From the NCBI GenBank assembly GCA_019116405.1, contig DXBS01000026.1, positions 1-8,132 on the forward strand: DNA of 8,132 nucleotides, read 5' to 3'. The notes beneath the pieces are model-generated. The model was not told where the DNA came from and made no database searches. It worked only from the letters and a program-made list of their open reading frames with translations. The stretch comes from Candidatus Gallimonas intestinigallinarum. GTDB taxonomy: Bacteria; Bacillota_A; Clostridia; Christensenellales; Borkfalkiaceae. Both the position numbers and the translations under genes were made by a program. This document shows positions 112 to 7,127 of the stretch, one piece after another. Each line of letters opens with the position of its first letter. Positions within the stretch are counted from its first letter, which is position 1.

Positions 112-2919
112 TTACTCCCTTACACTATAGCGGTTGGACTCCGTCTTGGAGACGCCGTCGCCGCTGATGTATTCATTCGCCCAGGTGCTGTTGGTGCCAA
201 AACCCTTGCCCGCCACAGGCGCGCCTGCGATATTATCGGGATGATCGTCGACCAGTCCCCAGGTATAGCCCGTGACGGCGTCCTCGCCGTACACCTGCTC
301 CGTGACCGAGTTGTACAGTCCGAAGAAGTCGCCCTCGCTGACCGTCGCGGTGTTGTAGTCGCCGCAGTCCACAAAGTAGGCGGTGTAGTTGACAAACCGA
401 TCGAGGTAGATGAACGAGCAGACCTTTGCCGACTCCGCGCCGTCCACGCCGCGGAAGGTGATGGGAATGACATCGTACGTCGTACCGTTTGCGCTGACCG
501 TCTGCGCGTTTTGGGTGATTTCGGCGGGCAGGTCGATGGTCACGGCATAGGTCGTGTTGCTGCCCGCATAGCTGAGCGAAGCGTTGGAATAGAGCACGGT
601 GTCGCCCGAGACGATCTCGATGCTCTTGCCGGCGTCCTCCCCTGCAAGGTAAACGGTGAGGCGGTTGGCGGCGTCCTTATCCACCGCCATGCGGTAGGTG
701 AACGAGCCGCCCGCTTCGGCATAGCGGTAGGTGCCGATGCCGCCCGCGACGTTGGTCGCCCCCTGCGAGCCGTCCGTCTGCATGTCGTGCAGTTCGTCCG
801 TCTCATACTGACCGTATCCGGGCTGGACGGTGTCCACGCGCTCCCAGCTGTAGGCGGGATGCTCCTCTACCACTTCCTCGTCCGTGTCGACAAAGTTCAT
901 GTAGATGGCATAGCGCTGCGTGTACTGGCGGAAATGGTAGGAATAGGTGAGCGGCTCCTCCGACTCCGTGCCCGTCAGCGTGAACTTGCCGTCCTCGCCC
1001 CTGACCATGTAGGCATCGACATTTTCCATGATTTCGGCGACGGTGACCGAGGAGACCTGCACGGGGCTGACGCTCACGGCGGCTGCGGGAATGGTGACAT
1101 TGACGCCCGTCGTCGTTGTCGTCATGTTCTCTGTACCCAGCTCCGCAGAGAGCACGAAGGGGCCGTATTTGAAGGCATAGACATTCTCGCCGTCGGGCAA
1201 ATTATATGCCATGACCGTCTTTTGCAGGGAGACGGTGACCTCGTCCCCCGCGCTGACGTCCACGGAGAGGAAGCCGTCCTGCGGCTCGCCCTCGATCGCC
1301 GTGCCGTTGACGAAGACCGTAAAGCTCTGCGTCCATTCGGGGCAGCGCAGGCGCAAGGTCGTCGCGCCGCTGTCGATATGAATGGTGACCTCGTCCGAAT
1401 TTTCAAGGTCGGCGGTCTGCGTCAGGGAGACGGCGTCCGTCGTATACGTCGAATCGAGGTAGAGCGCGACATAGGTCGCATTGCCTGCATCGTAATAGAT
1501 GCTGTCGTTCAGCTTGGTGAAGCTCTCCATACCGCTGCCCGTGCAGCACCAGAAGTGATTTTCCGCCGAGGAGTACACCTTGAAGTAGCCCGACGCCATG
1601 GGCTGGAAGTAGGTCGTCATGCCCGTTTCGGGGTTCTGCGACGACCAGATCGCATTATAGTACGTCCCCTCGTAGAAATCGAGGTATTTGACGTCCTTGG
1701 TGACGGCAAAGAGCATGCGCGAGAGCTTGAGCATGTTGTATGTATTGCACGTCTCGCAGTTGGCGTTGGTGCGCTCCGCGTTGAGGACGTCGTCCCGCCC
1801 GAAGTGCTCCCACTCGGAATTGCCGCCCGTCACATAGGTATGATGCTCCACGACGCACTCCCAGAACAGCTCCGCTGCATACAGATAGTCTATCGCAACA
1901 TTTTCCAATTCCGCGACGGGCGCCTCCGTCAGCGAGATAAACCCGTTGAGCAGACCGATGACCTTGGGAATGGTCGTGTTGGCGTGCTTGCCGTCCAGAT
2001 AGTTGGCTTGCTCGCTCAGAATGCTGTTGACCAGGCTCTGTTCGTCAAACTTGTGCGCCGCAACGGCATAGCGCGTGTCCCCCGTCACCCGATAGAGGTT
2101 GTAGAGGCAATCGTTCATACCGCCGTATTCGATGCCGAGCACGATGCGCTGCGTGGTATCCGACCACTGACTGACGCGCTCATACACCCAGTCGCCCAGC
2201 TTGGTGACGACGGTGAGCGCCTCTTCGTTGCCAGCGAGCGTGTACGCGTCGAGCAGTCCCGCGATGATCTTGTGCATCGTGTACCACGGCACCCACGCCT
2301 CGGTATTGATATTCGTTCTGCCCTGCTCCACGTTATCGAACTGGATCTCGACATTGGTATTGCTGGCGACGCGCGCGCCCCACAAGAAGCCCTCTTTCGC
2401 GCCGCGCGCGCTGTCGTAATTATCCTGACACTCCGCGAGCGAATAGATGATATAGTCCAGCTTGCCTGCAAGCTGCGCCCTATCCTCCTCCGACGTGCCT
2501 GCATTGGCGATCGCCTGCGAGAGCGCCGTCAAGTAGTGCCCCATCGTGTGCCCGCCGATCAGTGCGTTCTCCCAGCCGCCGCTATAGCAGGTTGAACCGA
2601 TGCTCCCGATCGAGGAATTGAGATAGAAGTTGGCGAGCAGCCTGTCCGCATCGAGCAGCAGAAGGTAGTCGATCTCCTTTTCCAGCCCGTTGACGGCATA
2701 ATCGTCGGTGATCACCGTCTCCGAAAGGTCGGTGAAGGAGATGTCCTCCGCATCCGTCTGATCGCTCACCGTGGGCGGCTCGTCCGTCGTATCCGACGGA
2801 TCATCCCCCGGCGTCTGTTCCGCCGGCGCACATGCGGCAAGCCCGCCCAATGCAAACGTACCGCAAAGTAAGGCTGAGAGCACGAGCGCCGCCGCCCGTC
2901 TTCTGCGCATTTTGACCAT
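112..2919 (-). CDS. Secreted DUF1680 glycoside hydrolase lipoprotein (GH127/GH146-like, probable beta-L-arabinofuranosidase)
   Basis: The protein has 935 residues from the chosen ATG. Residues 1-30 form a lipoprotein signal: an RRRR stretch, a hydrophobic core, and lipobox LAAC with Cys30. An acidic, Pro/Thr-rich linker follows to about residue 60, so the enzyme should sit on the outer face of the membrane. The DUF1680 catalytic (alpha/alpha)6 region runs from about 70 to 600. It has GHTMGHYL near 123-130, an ETC motif (Glu389, Cys391) and a CC pair (Cys458, Cys459). In characterised GH127 enzymes such a Glu-x-Cys plus Cys-Cys set binds zinc, and one Cys is the nucleophile. Glu369 or Glu371 is a candidate acid/base. 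Beta-rich accessory domains fill the rest. An in-frame GTG at 2949 would add ten residues but lacks a ribosome binding site; ATG 2919 has AGGGGG ten bases upstream, and ATG 2910 is also possible. The exact sugar specificity is inferred. The C-terminus appears cut short. Confidence 0.85.
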   Translation of the reverse strand: MVKMRRRRAAALVLSALLCGTFALGGLAACAPAEQTPGDDPSDTTDEPPTVSDQTDAEDISFTDLSETVITDDYAVNGLEKEIDYLLLLDADRLLANFYLNSSIGSIGSTCYSGGWENALIGGHTMGHYLTALSQAIANAGTSEEDRAQLAGKLDYIIYSLAECQDNYDSARGAKEGFLWGARVASNTNVEIQFDNVEQGRTNINTEAWVPWYTMHKIIAGLLDAYTLAGNEEALTVVTKLGDWVYERVSQWSDTTQRIVLGIEYGGMNDCLYNLYRVTGDTRYAVAAHKFDEQSLVNSILSEQANYLDGKHANTTIPKVIGLLNGFISLTEAPVAELENVAIDYLYAAELFWECVVEHHTYVTGGNSEWEHFGRDDVLNAERTNANCETCNTYNMLKLSRMLFAVTKDVKYLDFYEGTYYNAIWSSQNPETGMTTYFQPMASGYFKVYSSAENHFWCCTGSGMESFTKLNDSIYYDAGNATYVALYLDSTYTTDAVSLTQTADLENSDEVTIHIDSGATTLRLRCPEWTQSFTVFVNGTAIEGEPQDGFLSVDVSAGDEVTVSLQKTVMAYNLPDGENVYAFKYGPFVLSAELGTENMTTTTTGVNVTIPAAAVSVSPVQVSSVTVAEIMENVDAYMVRGEDGKFTLTGTESEEPLTYSYHFRQYTQRYAIYMNFVDTDEEVVEEHPAYSWERVDTVQPGYGQYETDELHDMQTDGSQGATNVAGGIGTYRYAEAGGSFTYRMAVDKDAANRLTVYLAGEDAGKSIEIVSGDTVLYSNASLSYAGSNTTYAVTIDLPAEITQNAQTVSANGTTYDVIPITFRGVDGAESAKVCSFIYLDRFVNYTAYFVDCGDYNTATVSEGDFFGLYNSVTEQVYGEDAVTGYTWGLVDDHPDNIAGAPVAGKGFGTNSTWANEYISGDGVSKTESNRYSVRE

Positions 2920-2953
2920 TTCCTCATTTCCCCCTTGTTTTTTCTTCACAGGA

Positions 2954-3030: not shown

Positions 3031-3864
3031 ATGGTAGCAAAAAGTAATTTACATTTTGATCTGAGCGCCCCTGTCCAGCTCTTGTGGTTCGGCGAATTTA
3101 TCTCTCCCGAGAAAAACTGGAAACACCTCACGCGGCGGCTGTTCGAATATGAGCTGTTCGTCGTGACGGAGGGCGTCCTGTACATTGCCGACGAGGAATT
3201 TGAGCACGAAGTCCGCGCAGGGGAATACCTCATCATGCCGCCGACCGTGAATCAGCACGGCTCGCGCGTCTGCCGCTGCCGCTTTTACTGGCTGCACTTC
3301 CGCTGTCCCGCGCTGCCCGCCTCCGTCTCCATGCCTGAGCAGGGCAGTTTTTCCGATGCGGACACCGTGCGCACCATTGCCAAGAAGCTCATGCAGGCGG
3401 AAGCGGCCGAACCGCGCGGCGTGCACTCGCGCTATCTTGCGAGCGAACTTTTGCTCGAACTTCGGGAACAGGCGCTTGCGGGCGCGCACGAGGCAGGCGG
3501 CGCCAACTCCTCCGCCGAACGGCTGTGCGAGCGCATCAGGGAGTTTGTCTTCTTCCACCGCTTTTCCGACGTCAAGGTGCGCGAGATCGCGCGGGAACTC
3601 GGGTATCACGCAAAGTACCTCTCCGCCCTCTTTCACCGCACCGAGGGCGTGACGCTCAAATCGTATATCAACGCCCAGCGCTGCGCGGAGGCAAAGCGGC
3701 TTTTATTGGAGAGCGGGCTCACCGTGACCGAGGTCGCCTATTACCTCAACTTCCCCGATCCGCACAGCTTTGCCCGCTTTTTTAAGACGATGACGGGAAT
3801 AACGGCGACGCAGTTCCGCGAAGAACAGTCGGTCTCTCCCCCGAAGCCGGCGCCCGAAATATAA
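3031..3864 (+). CDS. AraC-family transcriptional regulator (cupin sensor plus double HTH)
   Basis: This is a 277-residue cytoplasmic DNA-binding protein of typical AraC-family length. Residues 10-95 resemble the AraC-type cupin sugar-sensing domain, including a stretch ending EYLIMPPTVNQHG that is typical of the barrel. Residues about 165-265 form the DNA-binding domain. The first helix-turn-helix lies at 183-205 (IARELGYHAKYLSALFHR) and the second at about 230-254 (VTEVAYYLNFPDPHSFARFFK), with the family signature of PHSFARFFK followed by a T-G-I-T-A segment. The start is supported by AGGAA at 3021-3025, five bases upstream of ATG. It is divergent from the DUF1680 hydrolase and shares its promoter region, so it most likely controls that gene, and perhaps itself, in response to a pentose or an oligosaccharide. 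The effector cannot be read from sequence. Confidence 0.93.
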   Translation: MVAKSNLHFDLSAPVQLLWFGEFISPEKNWKHLTRRLFEYELFVVTEGVLYIADEEFEHEVRAGEYLIMPPTVNQHGSRVCRCRFYWLHFRCPALPASVSMPEQGSFSDADTVRTIAKKLMQAEAAEPRGVHSRYLASELLLELREQALAGAHEAGGANSSAERLCERIREFVFFHRFSDVKVREIARELGYHAKYLSALFHRTEGVTLKSYINAQRCAEAKRLLLESGLTVTEVAYYLNFPDPHSFARFFKTMTGITATQFREEQSVSPPKPAPEI

Positions 3865-3994: not shown

Positions 3995-5055
3995 TTACCT
4001 GACAATCTTGCGCCAACCGTAGGGATCGGGCGTCGTGCCGTACTGGATGCCCGTGATGGTATCGTAGAGCATCTTGGTGATCTCCCCCATCTTGCCGCCG
4101 TTGATGACGTAGTCCTTGTCCTTATAGCGAATGAGCCCGACGGGCGAGATGACCGCCGCCGTACCCGTGCCGAATGCCTCGTCCAGCGTGCCGTTTTCGG
4201 ACGCCTCCAGCACCTCGTCAATGGAGATGCGGCGCTCGGTGACGGGGATGCCCTTGTCCTTTAAGACCTGGATGCAGCTCTTTCTGGTGATGCCGGGCAG
4301 AATGGAGCCGACGAGCGCGGGCGTGATGACCTCGCCGCCGATCACGAAGAACATGTTCATGCTGCCCACTTCTTCGACGTACTTCTTCTCCTTGGCGTCC
4401 AGCCAGAGGACCTGATCGAAGCCCTTCTCCTCCGCCTCTTCGCCTGCCTTCATGGACGCGGCGTAGTTGCCAAGGCACTTGCCTCGCCCGTGCCGCCCAG
4501 CGTCGCGCGGGTGTAGTAATCCTCCACGACGAGCTTTGTAGGCTCCAGCCCGTGCGCATAGTAACTGCCGACAGGCGAGAGGATGATGAAGAACAGATAT
4601 TCCGTGGACGCGTGCACGCCGAGCATGACGCGCGTCGCGACGATGGTCGGGCGAATGTAGAGCGCCGTGCCGGGCAGGGTCGGGATCCAGTCCTTCTCCA
4701 GTTTCAGAAGTTCCTCCAGTCCCTCTTCGACGACATCCTCGGGAAAGTTGGGGATGCACATTCTCGTTGCGGAACGGTTCATGCGCGCCCAGTTCTCCTC
4801 GGGACGGAATACGGCGATGGAGCCGTCGGGCTGCTTGAATGCCTTCATGCCCTCGAAGATGCCCTGCGCATAGTGGAAAATGCTCGTCGCAAGGTCGAAC
4901 GGTTTGGGTTCGTTGGGTTCAATTTTTGCATCGTGCCAGCCCTTCTCGGCGGTGTACTTCATTGTGAACATATAGTCGGTGAAGTAGTGACCGAAGCCGA
5001 GCGAGTTATCAAACACGGGTTTTTCCTTGAGCTGCTTTCTTTTGATGATCTCCAT
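3995..5055 (-). pseudogene. ilvE: Branched-chain amino acid aminotransferase, frameshifted at the PLP-lysine junction
   Basis: The product would be a fold-type IV, PLP-dependent aminotransferase that exchanges the amino group between glutamate and Leu, Ile or Val. The first frame starts at ATG 5055, with GAGG seven bases upstream, and reads MEIIKRKQ to ...[10 protein letters not shown] (191 residues). The family motif then continues in another frame as [12 protein letters not shown] to the stop at 3995. Inserting one base between 4480 and 4481 restores [15 protein letters not shown] and a 353-residue protein of normal length. The first codon after the lesion is AAG, the lysine expected to form the PLP Schiff base (residue 193 of the restored protein). 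As written, the first frame ends ten codons later without it. Other conserved stretches are intact ([45 protein letters not shown]), so the event is recent or a sequencing error. The gene has its own promoter and a terminator. Confidence 0.9.
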
Positions 5056-5114: not shown

Positions 5115-5730
5115 GCGGAAAAGGCGAAAAATATGATTTCCCGCGCAAAATCTCCGCGCGGCCGAGGAGCATATCGCTGCAGCGCGCGCAGAAGTCGTCA
5201 ACGCTCTCCTCGCGGACGGCGACTGTGAAGGACGCCTTCTCCGCAAACTCCCTGGAAAGCACGTTTTCGCCCTCTAAAAAGCGGGTGAGCGCGTTGACTT
5301 CGGGGTAGTTGACGGCGATCGTCACCTCGACACAGACGGCGTATTCGCAGATCTCCGCCCGCTCCAGCGCCTCTGCGGCGCTTGAAGAATACGCGCGCGT
5401 CAGTCCGCCCGCCCCCAGCTTGATGCCGCCGAAGTAGCGCACGACCGCAACGCCCGTCTCAAACAGTTTGCGCGCGCGGATGACCCCGAGGATGGGCATG
5501 CCCGCCGTCCCCTGCGGCTCGCCGTCGTCCGAAAAGCGCATGAGATTGCCGATGCGGTCGGCGACGAACGCATAGCACACATGGGTCGCAAGCGGGTGCT
5601 GTGCGCGGACTTCCGCCAAAAAGGCGCGTGCCGCCGCCTCATCCTCCGTGTGCGCGACGTAGGTGAGAAAGCGCGACTTTTCGATGACCTTCTCGTACGA
5701 AGAGGGTTTTGCGACGCTCAGGTAGCTCAC
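5104..5730 (-). CDS. yigZ: YigZ/IMPACT family protein (UPF0029 plus DUF1949)
   Basis: The protein has 208 residues from a GTG start, close to the roughly 200 usual for the bacterial family. The N-terminal IMPACT/UPF0029 domain carries [15 protein letters not shown] (67-81) and [19 protein letters not shown] (96-114), both family signatures. The C-terminal part (about 135-205) fits DUF1949. The eukaryotic relative IMPACT binds GCN1 and is linked to translational stress; the bacterial role is poorly defined, so no specific reaction is claimed. The open frame runs back to 5880, but that part is only the tyrS antiframe. The GTG at 5730 overlaps the tyrS TGA in the string GTGA, and AAAGG lies ten bases upstream, so translation is probably coupled to tyrS. 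Confidence 0.9.
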
Positions 5731-6923
5731 TGCACGCTGACCTTTAAGCGCACCTTCTTGCCCTTGAACAGTGTGAAGGGCGACGGGGGCAGCGGCGCGT
5801 TGACGTCCGTGACCTTCTCGCCGTTGATCGTGACGCCTCCCTGTTCGACGAGACGGCGCGCCTCGCCGTTGGACTTGCACACGCCCGTCGCGACGAGCGC
5901 CTGCAGTACCGTCTGCGTATCGGCAGGAATGACCTTTTCGGGCATCTCGCCCTCGCCGCCGAAGGCGGCCTTCGCCTGTGCGCGGACGGCGTCCGCGTTC
6001 TCCTGCCCGTGCACCATCTTGGTCAGCTCGTAGGCGAGCACTTCCTTGGCAGCGTTCATGCGCTCGTCCTGATAGCGCGTCAGTTCCGCGATCTCGTCAA
6101 GGGGCAGGAAGGTGAGGAGCTTCAGGCACTTCTCGACGTCCGCGTCGGCGGTGTTGCGCCAGTACTGGTAGAACTCATAGGGCGGGGTCTTGTTCTCATC
6201 CAGCCAGACGGCGCCCTTCTGCGTCTTGCCCATCTTCTTGCCCTCGCTCGTGGTGAGCAGGGTGAACGTCATGGCAAACGCCGCCTTGCGCTCTTTGCGG
6301 CGGATGAGGTCCGCACCCGCAAGGATGTTGCTCCACTGGTCGTCGCCGCCCATCTGCAACAGGCACCCGTATTTGCGGTTGAGCACCAAGAAATCGTACG
6401 CCTGCATGAGCATATAGTTAAATTCAAGGAAGGTAAGCCCCTTCTCCATGCGCGAACGGTAGCACTCCGCCGTGAGCATTTTGTTGACGGAAAAGTACAC
6501 GCCGACGTCGCGCAGGAAGTCCACGTAATTGAGGTTTAAAAGCCAATCCGCGTTATTGACGACGATCGCGCCGTTCTCGCCCTCGAAGCGGATGAAGCGC
6601 GACATCTGCTTCTTGAAGCATTCGACGTGATATTTGACGGTCTCGCGCGTCATCATGGAGCGCATATCGGTGCGACCGGAGGGGTCGCCGATCATGCCCG
6701 TGCCGCCGCCGATGAGGATGATGGGCTTGTGGCCGGCATCCTGCATGTGGCGCATGGCGATGAGCTGCATGAAGTGGCCGACGTGCAGGCTGTCCGCCGT
6801 GGGATCGAAGCCGATATAGAAGGGGACGCTCTCGCTGCCGAGCTTTTCGTAGAGCTCGTCCTCGTACACCGTCTGCTTGATAAAGCCGCGCGCACGCAGC
6901 GTGTCCATTACATTTTGTGACAT
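5727..6923 (-). CDS. tyrS: Tyrosyl-tRNA synthetase
   Basis: This cytoplasmic class Ic enzyme charges tRNA-Tyr with tyrosine using ATP. The 398 residues are a normal bacterial length. The Rossmann catalytic domain has [16 protein letters not shown] (35-50), with HVGH as the HIGH motif, [10 protein letters not shown] (74-83), YMLMQAYDF (170-178) and [11 protein letters not shown] (190-200) in the tyrosine and ATP pocket, and KMGKT (230-234) as the KMSKS-type loop. An S4 RNA-binding domain occupies about 333-390 ([21 protein letters not shown]). Together these fit the TyrRS-type enzyme with a C-terminal S4 domain. The start is supported by AAGGAG (6938-6933), nine bases upstream of ATG. It is the first gene of a unit with yigZ, and expression is likely controlled by the attenuator described at 6945-7091. 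Confidence 0.97.
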
Positions 6924-6944
6924 TGTTCTTTACTCCTTTTTTTC

Positions 6945-6985
6945 AATAAAAAACGGTCTGCGCCCCGCATTTGAGCGCAAACCGT
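6945..6985 (-). terminator. Intrinsic terminator (attenuator) in the tyrS leader
   Basis: On the minus strand, ACGGTTTGCGC (6985-6975) pairs with GCGCAGACCGT (6963-6953) in an 11-bp stem with one G-U pair and an 11-base loop, followed by TTTTTTATT (6953-6945). On the plus strand the same position is a C-A mismatch, so the structure is tuned for the minus transcript. It lies inside the 5' leader, with its T-run about ten bases before the tyrS ribosome binding site. It should therefore stop transcription before the gene unless prevented. Confidence 0.85.
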
Positions 6986-7013
6986 GCATGACCAGCCTGT
7001 TGTCACCTGCGAT

Positions 7014-7091
7014 TTACGCGCAAACGCACCCCGACGATTCGCCGCGGTAAAGATACTTGCCGTAAATTGCGAGGGACATTTCGTGCTTCAT
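7014..7091 (-). CDS. Tyrosine-rich leader peptide of tyrS (candidate attenuation peptide)
   Basis: A 25-codon open frame begins at ATG 7091 and ends at TAA 7016-7014. Its middle reads AIYGKYLYRGE: three tyrosines within six residues, at codons 7064-7062, 7055-7053 and 7049-7047. It lies between the tyrS promoter and the tyrS attenuator, which is where leader peptides of amino-acid operons sit. Slow decoding of the Tyr codons when charged tRNA-Tyr is scarce could change folding of the leader. The first ATG falls one or two bases from the predicted transcription start, so translation would be leaderless. The in-frame ATG at 7079, with a weak GAAG six bases upstream, is an alternative that keeps all three tyrosines. 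Length and position are seen directly; the regulatory role is inferred. Confidence 0.55.
   Translation of the reverse strand: MKHEMSLAIYGKYLYRGESSGCVCA
7027..7049 (-). promoter_or_regulatory. Leader RNA hairpin starting at the third Tyr codon
   Basis: In the tyrS leader RNA, UACC-G-CGGCG pairs with CGUCG-G-GGUG around an AAU loop, giving nine pairs including two G-U pairs, with one G-G mismatch. The 5' arm begins with the last tyrosine codon (7049-7047), so a ribosome paused there would block it. This is the expected position of a pause or protector hairpin in a ribosome-controlled attenuator. Confidence 0.45.
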
Positions 7092-7098
7092 GTCACTC

Positions 7099-7127
7099 AT
7101 TATACACGCGAAAAAACCGTTTGTCAA
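7099..7127 (-). promoter_or_regulatory. Consensus sigma-A promoter of tyrS
   Basis: TTGACA (7127-7122), a 17-bp spacer and TATAAT (7104-7099) match the consensus at all twelve positions. Transcription should start near 7092-7093, giving a leader of about 170 nt before tyrS. Such a strong basal promoter fits control by termination in the leader rather than by initiation. Confidence 0.85.

Follow-up and report, generated by a model that had tools for sequence, protein, structure and literature searches.

The tyrosine--tRNA ligase gene tyrS is preceded, on the minus strand of the window (the whole 8,132-nucleotide stretch of DNA analyzed here), by a leader that we regard, with a probability of about 0.88, as a transcription attenuator worked by a ribosome reading tyrosine codons. 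Dozens of related gut bacteria conserve the arrangement, which suggests that tyrS would be turned on when a ribosome has to wait for tyrosine. A preliminary description of this DNA had proposed a probable ribosome-mediated attenuator before tyrS, and the proposal is supported in outline by tyrosine conservation specific to one reading frame, by covarying RNA helices, and by covariance searches that returned no T-box in the leader.

The perfect promoter claimed in that description is present on the minus strand, where a consensus −35 hexamer, TTGACA (positions 7122 to 7127), is separated by a 17-nt spacer from a −10 box, TATAAT (7099 to 7104), similar to boxes found in relatives. The leader peptide frame, MKHEMSLAIYGKYLYRGESSGCVCA, consists of 25 codons and a TAA stop (7014 to 7091, minus strand), and its ATG at 7091 lies 7 nt past the −10 box. 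Tyrosine at three of six consecutive codons had been described and was confirmed at codons 10, 13, and 15 (7064 to 7062, 7055 to 7053, and 7049 to 7047; span, 7047 to 7064, minus strand), which from their sequence are the proposed stall codons. Four putative pairing regions were assigned on the same strand. Region 1 (ATTTACG, or AUUUACG in RNA; 7061 to 7067) is the partner of region 2 as judged by covariation of helix 1:2, while region 2 (GCGCGTAAATCG / GCGCGUAAAUCG; 7010 to 7021) holds the stop codon of the small open reading frame (sORF) and could pair with either region 1 or region 3. Region 3 (ACGGTTTGCGC / ACGGUUUGCGC; 6975 to 6985) is the 5′ arm of the terminator, and region 4 (GCGCAGACCGU; 6948 to 6963), assigned from covariation of helix 3:4, contains both the 3′ arm GCGCAGACCGT (6963 to 6953), which forms 11 bp with ACGGTTTGCGC (6985 to 6975), and a U-run, T6, at 6953 to 6948. 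An 11-bp stem and U-run just before the tyrS Shine-Dalgarno sequence had also been claimed, and these elements indeed occupy 6985 to 6948, ahead of AAGGAG at 6938 to 6933 (minus strand; recognized by its sequence). The 398-amino-acid product of tyrS (5727 to 6923, minus strand; ATG at 6923) was identified through the NCBIfam equivalog TIGR00234 (408 bits versus a cutoff of 114; E = 3.6e-122). Because the fold of the 177-nt window leader scored z = −5.15, equalled by 0 of 200 shuffles, and many relatives have the same layout ahead of their tyrS genes, the arrangement is beyond chance.

Other features of the window are also noted here. The branched-chain aminotransferase gene ilvE (3995 to 5055, minus strand) is split into two overlapping frames, 4450 to 5055 and 3995 to 4759, which match the first and second halves, respectively, of a single family model; the split is a frameshift, either real or from assembly. 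Positions 112 to 2949 (minus strand) encode a 945-amino-acid protein with a partial, below-cutoff match to aceric acid hydrolase, and an AraC-type regulator is encoded divergently from it at 3031 to 3864.

One scan of genome contigs was used to collect tyrS loci in relatives, and the best 80 were kept. Among these 80, the loci nearest to the window are from metagenome bins labelled Clostridia, several of them from animal gut samples. Tyrosine-rich frames are visible in five (L001, L003, L006, L012, and L014), and the leader of L003, from genome G003, is almost identical to that of the window. Within the genus of G003, tyrS was matched in 100 of 103 genomes, the nearest copy sharing 94% identity with the window tyrS, and 97 upstream loci were obtained, 96 of them at least 100 nt long. 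Frames in these regions were accepted if they had at least 10 codons, started 4 to 11 nt after a −10-like box, and ended at least 40 nt before tyrS, with no preselection for tyrosine. By this rule, 41 of the 96 regions carry a leaderless-type sORF. The preliminary description had called for orthologous leaders to be aligned and the retention of tyrosine codons checked; the codons and the open frame are kept together with the terminator, at least two tyrosines being found in 40 of the 41 frames and in all 37 of those that also pass a strict terminator rule.

The companionship of tyrosine frame and terminator holds in general, with exceptions in which a hairpin is kept and the tyrosine frame is not (L169, L192, and, by eye, L128 and L134). 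The single exception among the 41 frames is L169, where a tyrosine-free frame (MAGNAASERFA) has a terminator overlapping its end. In L128 and L134, the hairpin of the terminator sequence is kept with neither its U-run nor a tyrosine frame. The terminator-like hairpins before tyrS in these four loci are possible remnants of the element. Among the 55 regions with no such sORF, a terminator-like hairpin was found within 110 nt in 3 and, by the rule, in none of the other 52. Its distribution across the genus is therefore patchy.

To look beyond the genus, 45 distinct leaders selected for at least two tyrosines were aligned (alignment A1) and made into a covariance model (R1). Searching 398 genomes of the family with R1 gave, under stricter filters, matches at E ≤ 0.01 in 86 genomes, 89 matches in total: 42 already in the set, 40 new ones that were examined, and 7 weak ones that were left out. 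Of the 40, 32 sit before tyrS, including every match with an E value below 4e-5, and the TyrS stretches behind these 32 fall into groups 64 to 69% and 79 to 90% identical to window TyrS. The other eight (L291, L298 to L300, L302, and L305 to L307; E values of 4.6e-5 to 0.008) were considered as the same element before other genes and rejected, being weak and devoid of the promoter-frame-terminator layout. Dropping L268, which equals L063, left 31 further family leaders of tyrS; L295 was dropped for a missing start, and all 30 readable leaders have at least two tyrosines (e.g., MKNFALKNGLSYGYSYCYYRNTSFRVE, MKGFMRQKEYYQTYAYAYYYGDTTI, MKNISVTLAYVYYFYYRG, and MVGLLFAHLYYCGYSYCLNK). An order-level draw of 396 genomes yielded seven R1 matches at E ≤ 0.001, and as four of these were already known members, the element, as seen by this model, is rare outside the family.

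Three individual leaders are worth recording. L272 differs from its close relatives by a shift of one base that puts the tyrosine cluster out of frame, through either sequencing error or decay. A similar frameshift in L275 was rejected, as its true start is further upstream. The locus of Clostridium sp. cel8 (L060), in AT-rich DNA with no terminator, was left out of the alignment by hand as a candidate member; 142 nt before its tyrS is a frame, MIIYKLVNWLIYIYNGYNVL, with a −10-like box at the same distance, which may be chance.

Codon counts indicate that the tyrosine codons are probably selected as codons. Across 75 leaders, tyrosine codons make up 281 of 1,498 codons in frame versus 18 and 31 of 1,498 in the other two frames, with nearly even usage (143 TAT and 138 TAC). 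Tyrosine accounts for 18.8% of residues after the start in these leaders versus 3.8% in window TyrS, and each of the 75 has 2 to 7 tyrosines, a range to be read with the preselection of 45 of them for at least 2. A like caveat applies to the statistics built on these leaders, since the 45-leader set was selected for tyrosine, R1 was built from that set, and related sequences are not independent. Within the 17 leaders of the MKxSLAV group, all four tyrosine columns are tyrosine in 17 of 17; one column mixes codons (11 TAC and 6 TAT) and the other three are invariant, and codon 13, between tyrosine columns, may be Ala, Leu, Trp, or Ser. Tyrosines are arranged differently in different lineages, as YGKYLY in the window and as YYIYAYAY, YGYSYCYY, or YYFYY elsewhere.

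Such leaders could also act by nascent-chain arrest, with a motif of the LAIYG type responding to a ligand or antibiotic and not to a codon-level shortage of charged tRNA-Tyr. Some nontyrosine residues are well kept within groups (SL, A, and AIYG in 17 leaders), as an arrest peptide would predict, but the family groups share tyrosine richness while differing in most other residues, and the controlled gene, tyrS, matches the codon. Arrest of this kind is the least probable of the alternatives, at most a very slight chance, and codon reading is the better account of the frame.

The distance from −10 box to ATG is 4 to 10 nt in the leaders. This places the ATG about where transcription should start, leaving no room for a Shine-Dalgarno sequence, so the peptide is probably leaderless, a point absent from the preliminary description. 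An exact pattern of promoter, 5 to 8 nt, and ATG had 36 matches in genomes G001, G003, and G004 versus 0 for the reversed pattern, and 16 of the 30 loci examined (L208 to L237) open frames of at least 150 amino acids, from which leaderless genes seem ordinary in this lineage. Among the 30, a tyrosine cluster together with a terminator occurs only in the two tyrS leaders (L208 and L234). One of the other loci, L213 in G004, has a leaderless 46-codon frame with five tyrosines (MYHYRKYALF...) upstream of another gene and no evident terminator. A leaderless attenuator frame in Firmicutes, if true, would offer a test of how initiation at a bare 5′ AUG can match the speed of RNA polymerase.

Compensatory change is evident in three helices, all first picked out visually on alignment A1 and afterward scored on that same alignment. 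The terminator helix 3:4 is paired in 92.3% of cells, with 20 double-change cells, and helix 1:2, which involves the coding region, is paired in 86.3%, with 16; none of 500 shuffles reached the covariation score of either. A hairpin joining the two late tyrosine codons to the stop-codon region is paired in 89.3% of cells, and its covariation score was likewise reached by 0 of 500 shuffles; its number of double-change pairs was reached by 124 of 500 and its number of pair types by 110 of 500. In leaders with an early stop (L001, L111 to L126, and others), this hairpin runs straight into a T-rich stretch and might thus serve for pausing or as a weak first terminator.

The last helix raises the question of whether the tyrosine codons owe their retention solely to UAUUAC being a hairpin arm (GUAUUACG:CGUAAUAC), the terminator being regulated in some other way, for example by TyrRS binding its own leader. 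The strong covariation of the hairpin, with 36 double-change cells, means that pairing constrains those bases, and the two late tyrosine codons never vary in the MKxSLAV group. Yet tyrosine-rich frames persist in the lineages with other arrangements, other tyrosine columns mix TAT and TAC and stay tyrosine, and an ATG recurs at its short distance from the −10 box. Retention for pairing only is accordingly quite unlikely, if the most credible of the alternatives weighed here, and reading of the codons by a ribosome is preferred.

Evidence for the proposed antiterminator, helix 2:3, is of a different kind. It is paired in 86.5% of cells versus 24 to 47% when the arms are slid, with only 2 double-change cells in fixed columns (a number reached by 347 of 500 shuffles) and a covariation score reached by 219 of 500; the predicted antiterminator is complementary, and its covariation is weak. 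Regions 2 and 3 are separated by a stretch of freely varying length. In 75 leaders, the duplex of region 2 with its own region 3 had an energy of −16.4 versus −14.0 with permuted partners, an advantage matched in 0 of 2,000 permutations and likewise in 0 of 2,000 within the 45 leaders. Among the 45, the gain is confined to 6 odd leaders (−11.82 with their own partners versus −9.31 and −5.98 with those of other groups), so that a handful of divergent lineages account for most of the permutation result; 32 leaders with a common region 3 gained nothing (−14.06 versus −13.89 with each other's), nor did 7 UUUACGC leaders (−10.63 versus −10.97 among themselves). Compared by TyrS group, linkers of the main group (A) gave −16.90 with their own region 3 versus −11.42, and those of the second group (B) gave −14.19 versus −13.16. 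Against shuffled linkers, P = 0.05 was reached by 23 of 75 leaders (median z, −1.09), and an earlier version of this test, with arms set by RNAfold and badly delimited, gave 10 of 45.

From these sequences we infer where transcription starts, that the frame is translated, that ribosomes stall on it, and which way tyrS responds, as follows. Judging from the spacing, transcription would begin on the AUG or no more than a few bases away, and a ribosome would load on the bare 5′ end. With plentiful charged tRNA-Tyr, it would reach the stop codon, which most relatives have 12 to 18 nt before region 2 and the others within it, and would cover region 2 or, after release, let region 2 pair again with region 1, so that terminator 3:4 could form. 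With charged tRNA-Tyr scarce, a ribosome stalled on the tyrosine cluster would occupy region 1 and free region 2 for region 3, a pairing that would block the terminator and allow tyrS to be transcribed. Counted on alignment columns, stop codons fall within region 2 for 11 of the 45 leaders, the window included, and 12 to 18 nt upstream of it for 33; in L006, it is 5 nt upstream. A ribosome at a stop inside region 2 would itself cover that region, while at an upstream stop, release and 1:2 refolding would have to act.

When transcripts ending ahead of region 4 were folded at equilibrium, without a shuffle control, region 3 had at least four expected upstream pairs in 75 of 75 leaders with a ribosome on the tyrosine codons, in 66 with no ribosome, and in 60 with a ribosome at the stop. 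Expected pairs of region 3 in the window were 10.9, 9.0, and 7.0 in these respective states, and 24 of the 75 leaders lost at least two such pairs with the ribosome at the stop. On these numbers, most leaders would need a kinetic switch. The 75 leaders are ready natural variants.

A divergent T-box, or another riboswitch binding tRNA or a metabolite, would make the open frame incidental. There is precedent, as tyrS of Bacillus subtilis is described as being under a T-box (PMC2494555), and the leader does have alternative helices. A covariance search for a genuine T-box, raised in the preliminary description as a way to overturn its reading, found none with RF00230 in the window at E ≤ 5, none in 20 leader loci at E ≤ 0.5, and none in 20 tyrS loci at the gathering score. 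As a positive control, the same tool detected a T-box ahead of tyrS in two more distant Clostridia (L066 and L077), a finding that also counts in favor of the riboswitch reading. The other Rfam families matched were microRNA models, namely two at other places in the window and, in L269, mir-299 on both strands; these matches were put down to chance and rejected.

The absence before tyrS is informative because T-boxes were detected elsewhere in related genomes. All 12 relatives searched had T-box matches at E ≤ 0.001, from 1 to 6 each, and 7 genomes had one over the Rfam cutoff. In genomes with the tyrosine leader, these lie before pheS and leuA (G003) and thrS (G006), the pheS and thrS matches being below the Rfam cutoff, and in G005, which does not have the leader, one lies before a trpB-like gene. 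Further matches precede PF00133 proteins that, by position, appear to be ileS and cysS. The riboswitch explanation is also at odds with tyrosine enrichment confined to one frame and with some synonymous changes, neither of which a frame-blind RNA would show, and with the free length of the stretch from region 2 to region 3. We consider it very unlikely and retain tyrosine-codon attenuation as the explanation for the leader.

Two PF00579 proteins are encoded in each of G001, G003, and G004; one is tyrS and the other was interpreted as trpS, which apparently leaves tyrS as the only TyrRS gene in these genomes. Upstream regions of other synthetase genes (28 loci inspected by eye, with several starts misplaced by the script) gave no further peptide attenuators that we noticed, which, given those misplaced starts, does no more than suggest that there are none at these genes. 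The earlier proposal that peptide-based attenuation may have replaced a T-box here is supported as to attenuation by a tyrosine peptide, while the replacement itself is deduced from the distribution of T-boxes. Since tyrS of more distant Clostridia has a T-box and related genomes have T-boxes before other genes, replacement at tyrS is plausible from sequence comparison. A lineage with T-boxes before other synthetase and amino acid genes and a peptide at tyrS is suited to asking why and how a gene changes its sensor.

Control of synthetase genes by leader peptides has several parallels. According to PMC1262725, Firmicutes synthetase genes are mostly under T-boxes and none is listed under classical attenuation, and pheST of gammaproteobacteria and trpS and leuS of Streptomyces resemble the present case in having cognate codons, an antiterminator, and a terminator before a synthetase gene. 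Those attenuators use other amino acids in other phyla, and G003 combines the T-box match before pheS with a tyrosine leader. Other parallels are histidine leaders: PMC2965389 predicts that, in bacilli, hisZ and hisS* have exchanged T-boxes for His-leader peptides, and PMC9413887 predicts, by comparison, that his genes have His leaders in three lineages of Firmicutes. Both share with the present case the phylum, a peptide in the place of a T-box, and comparative prediction, but they involve histidine codons and hisS paralogues or his genes, whereas here the codons are for tyrosine, tyrS is apparently the sole TyrRS gene (in three genomes), and the frame is probably leaderless. Peptide attenuation replacing a T-box at a synthetase gene, suggested in the preliminary description, would gain a tyrosine case here, but as an idea it is not new, having been predicted earlier for hisS paralogues (PMC2965389).

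Other comparisons concern the start and the codons. The uORFC-8-2 motif before cysS of Rhodobacterales (PMC8632094) similarly has a conserved AUG and tandem cognate codons before a synthetase gene, and differs in using cysteine in alphaproteobacteria. Leaderless trpL of Sinorhizobium meliloti (PMC7298713) likewise encodes an attenuator peptide from the very 5′ terminus of its mRNA, for tryptophan and in another phylum, and leaderless polycysteine sORFs reported from mycobacteria share such a start, for cysteine and again in another phylum. The aroR leader of Corynebacterium glutamicum has a tyrosine codon in its peptide (Phe-Tyr-Phe) but is reported to be unresponsive to tyrosine availability (PMC11802643), and it controls an operon with aroF (DAHP synthase). 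No tyrosine-codon attenuator of tyrS was found in the open-licence literature searched. The tyrosine leader most probably belongs to the class of leader-peptide attenuators, of which it is a tyrosine-specific member unmatched in Rfam. The B. subtilis tyrS T-box (PMC2494555; Rfam RF00230) serves the same gene and the same inferred signal, but its RNA reads uncharged tRNA directly, and no T-box was detected in the tyrosine leaders. On balance, we lean toward a tyrosine-specific class of attenuators with a leaderless AUG in one uncultured family of gut Clostridia, in which the first ribosome would engage the emerging RNA and which would have displaced the T-box at tyrS, with the same cells retaining T-boxes at other genes for synthetases and amino acid metabolism.
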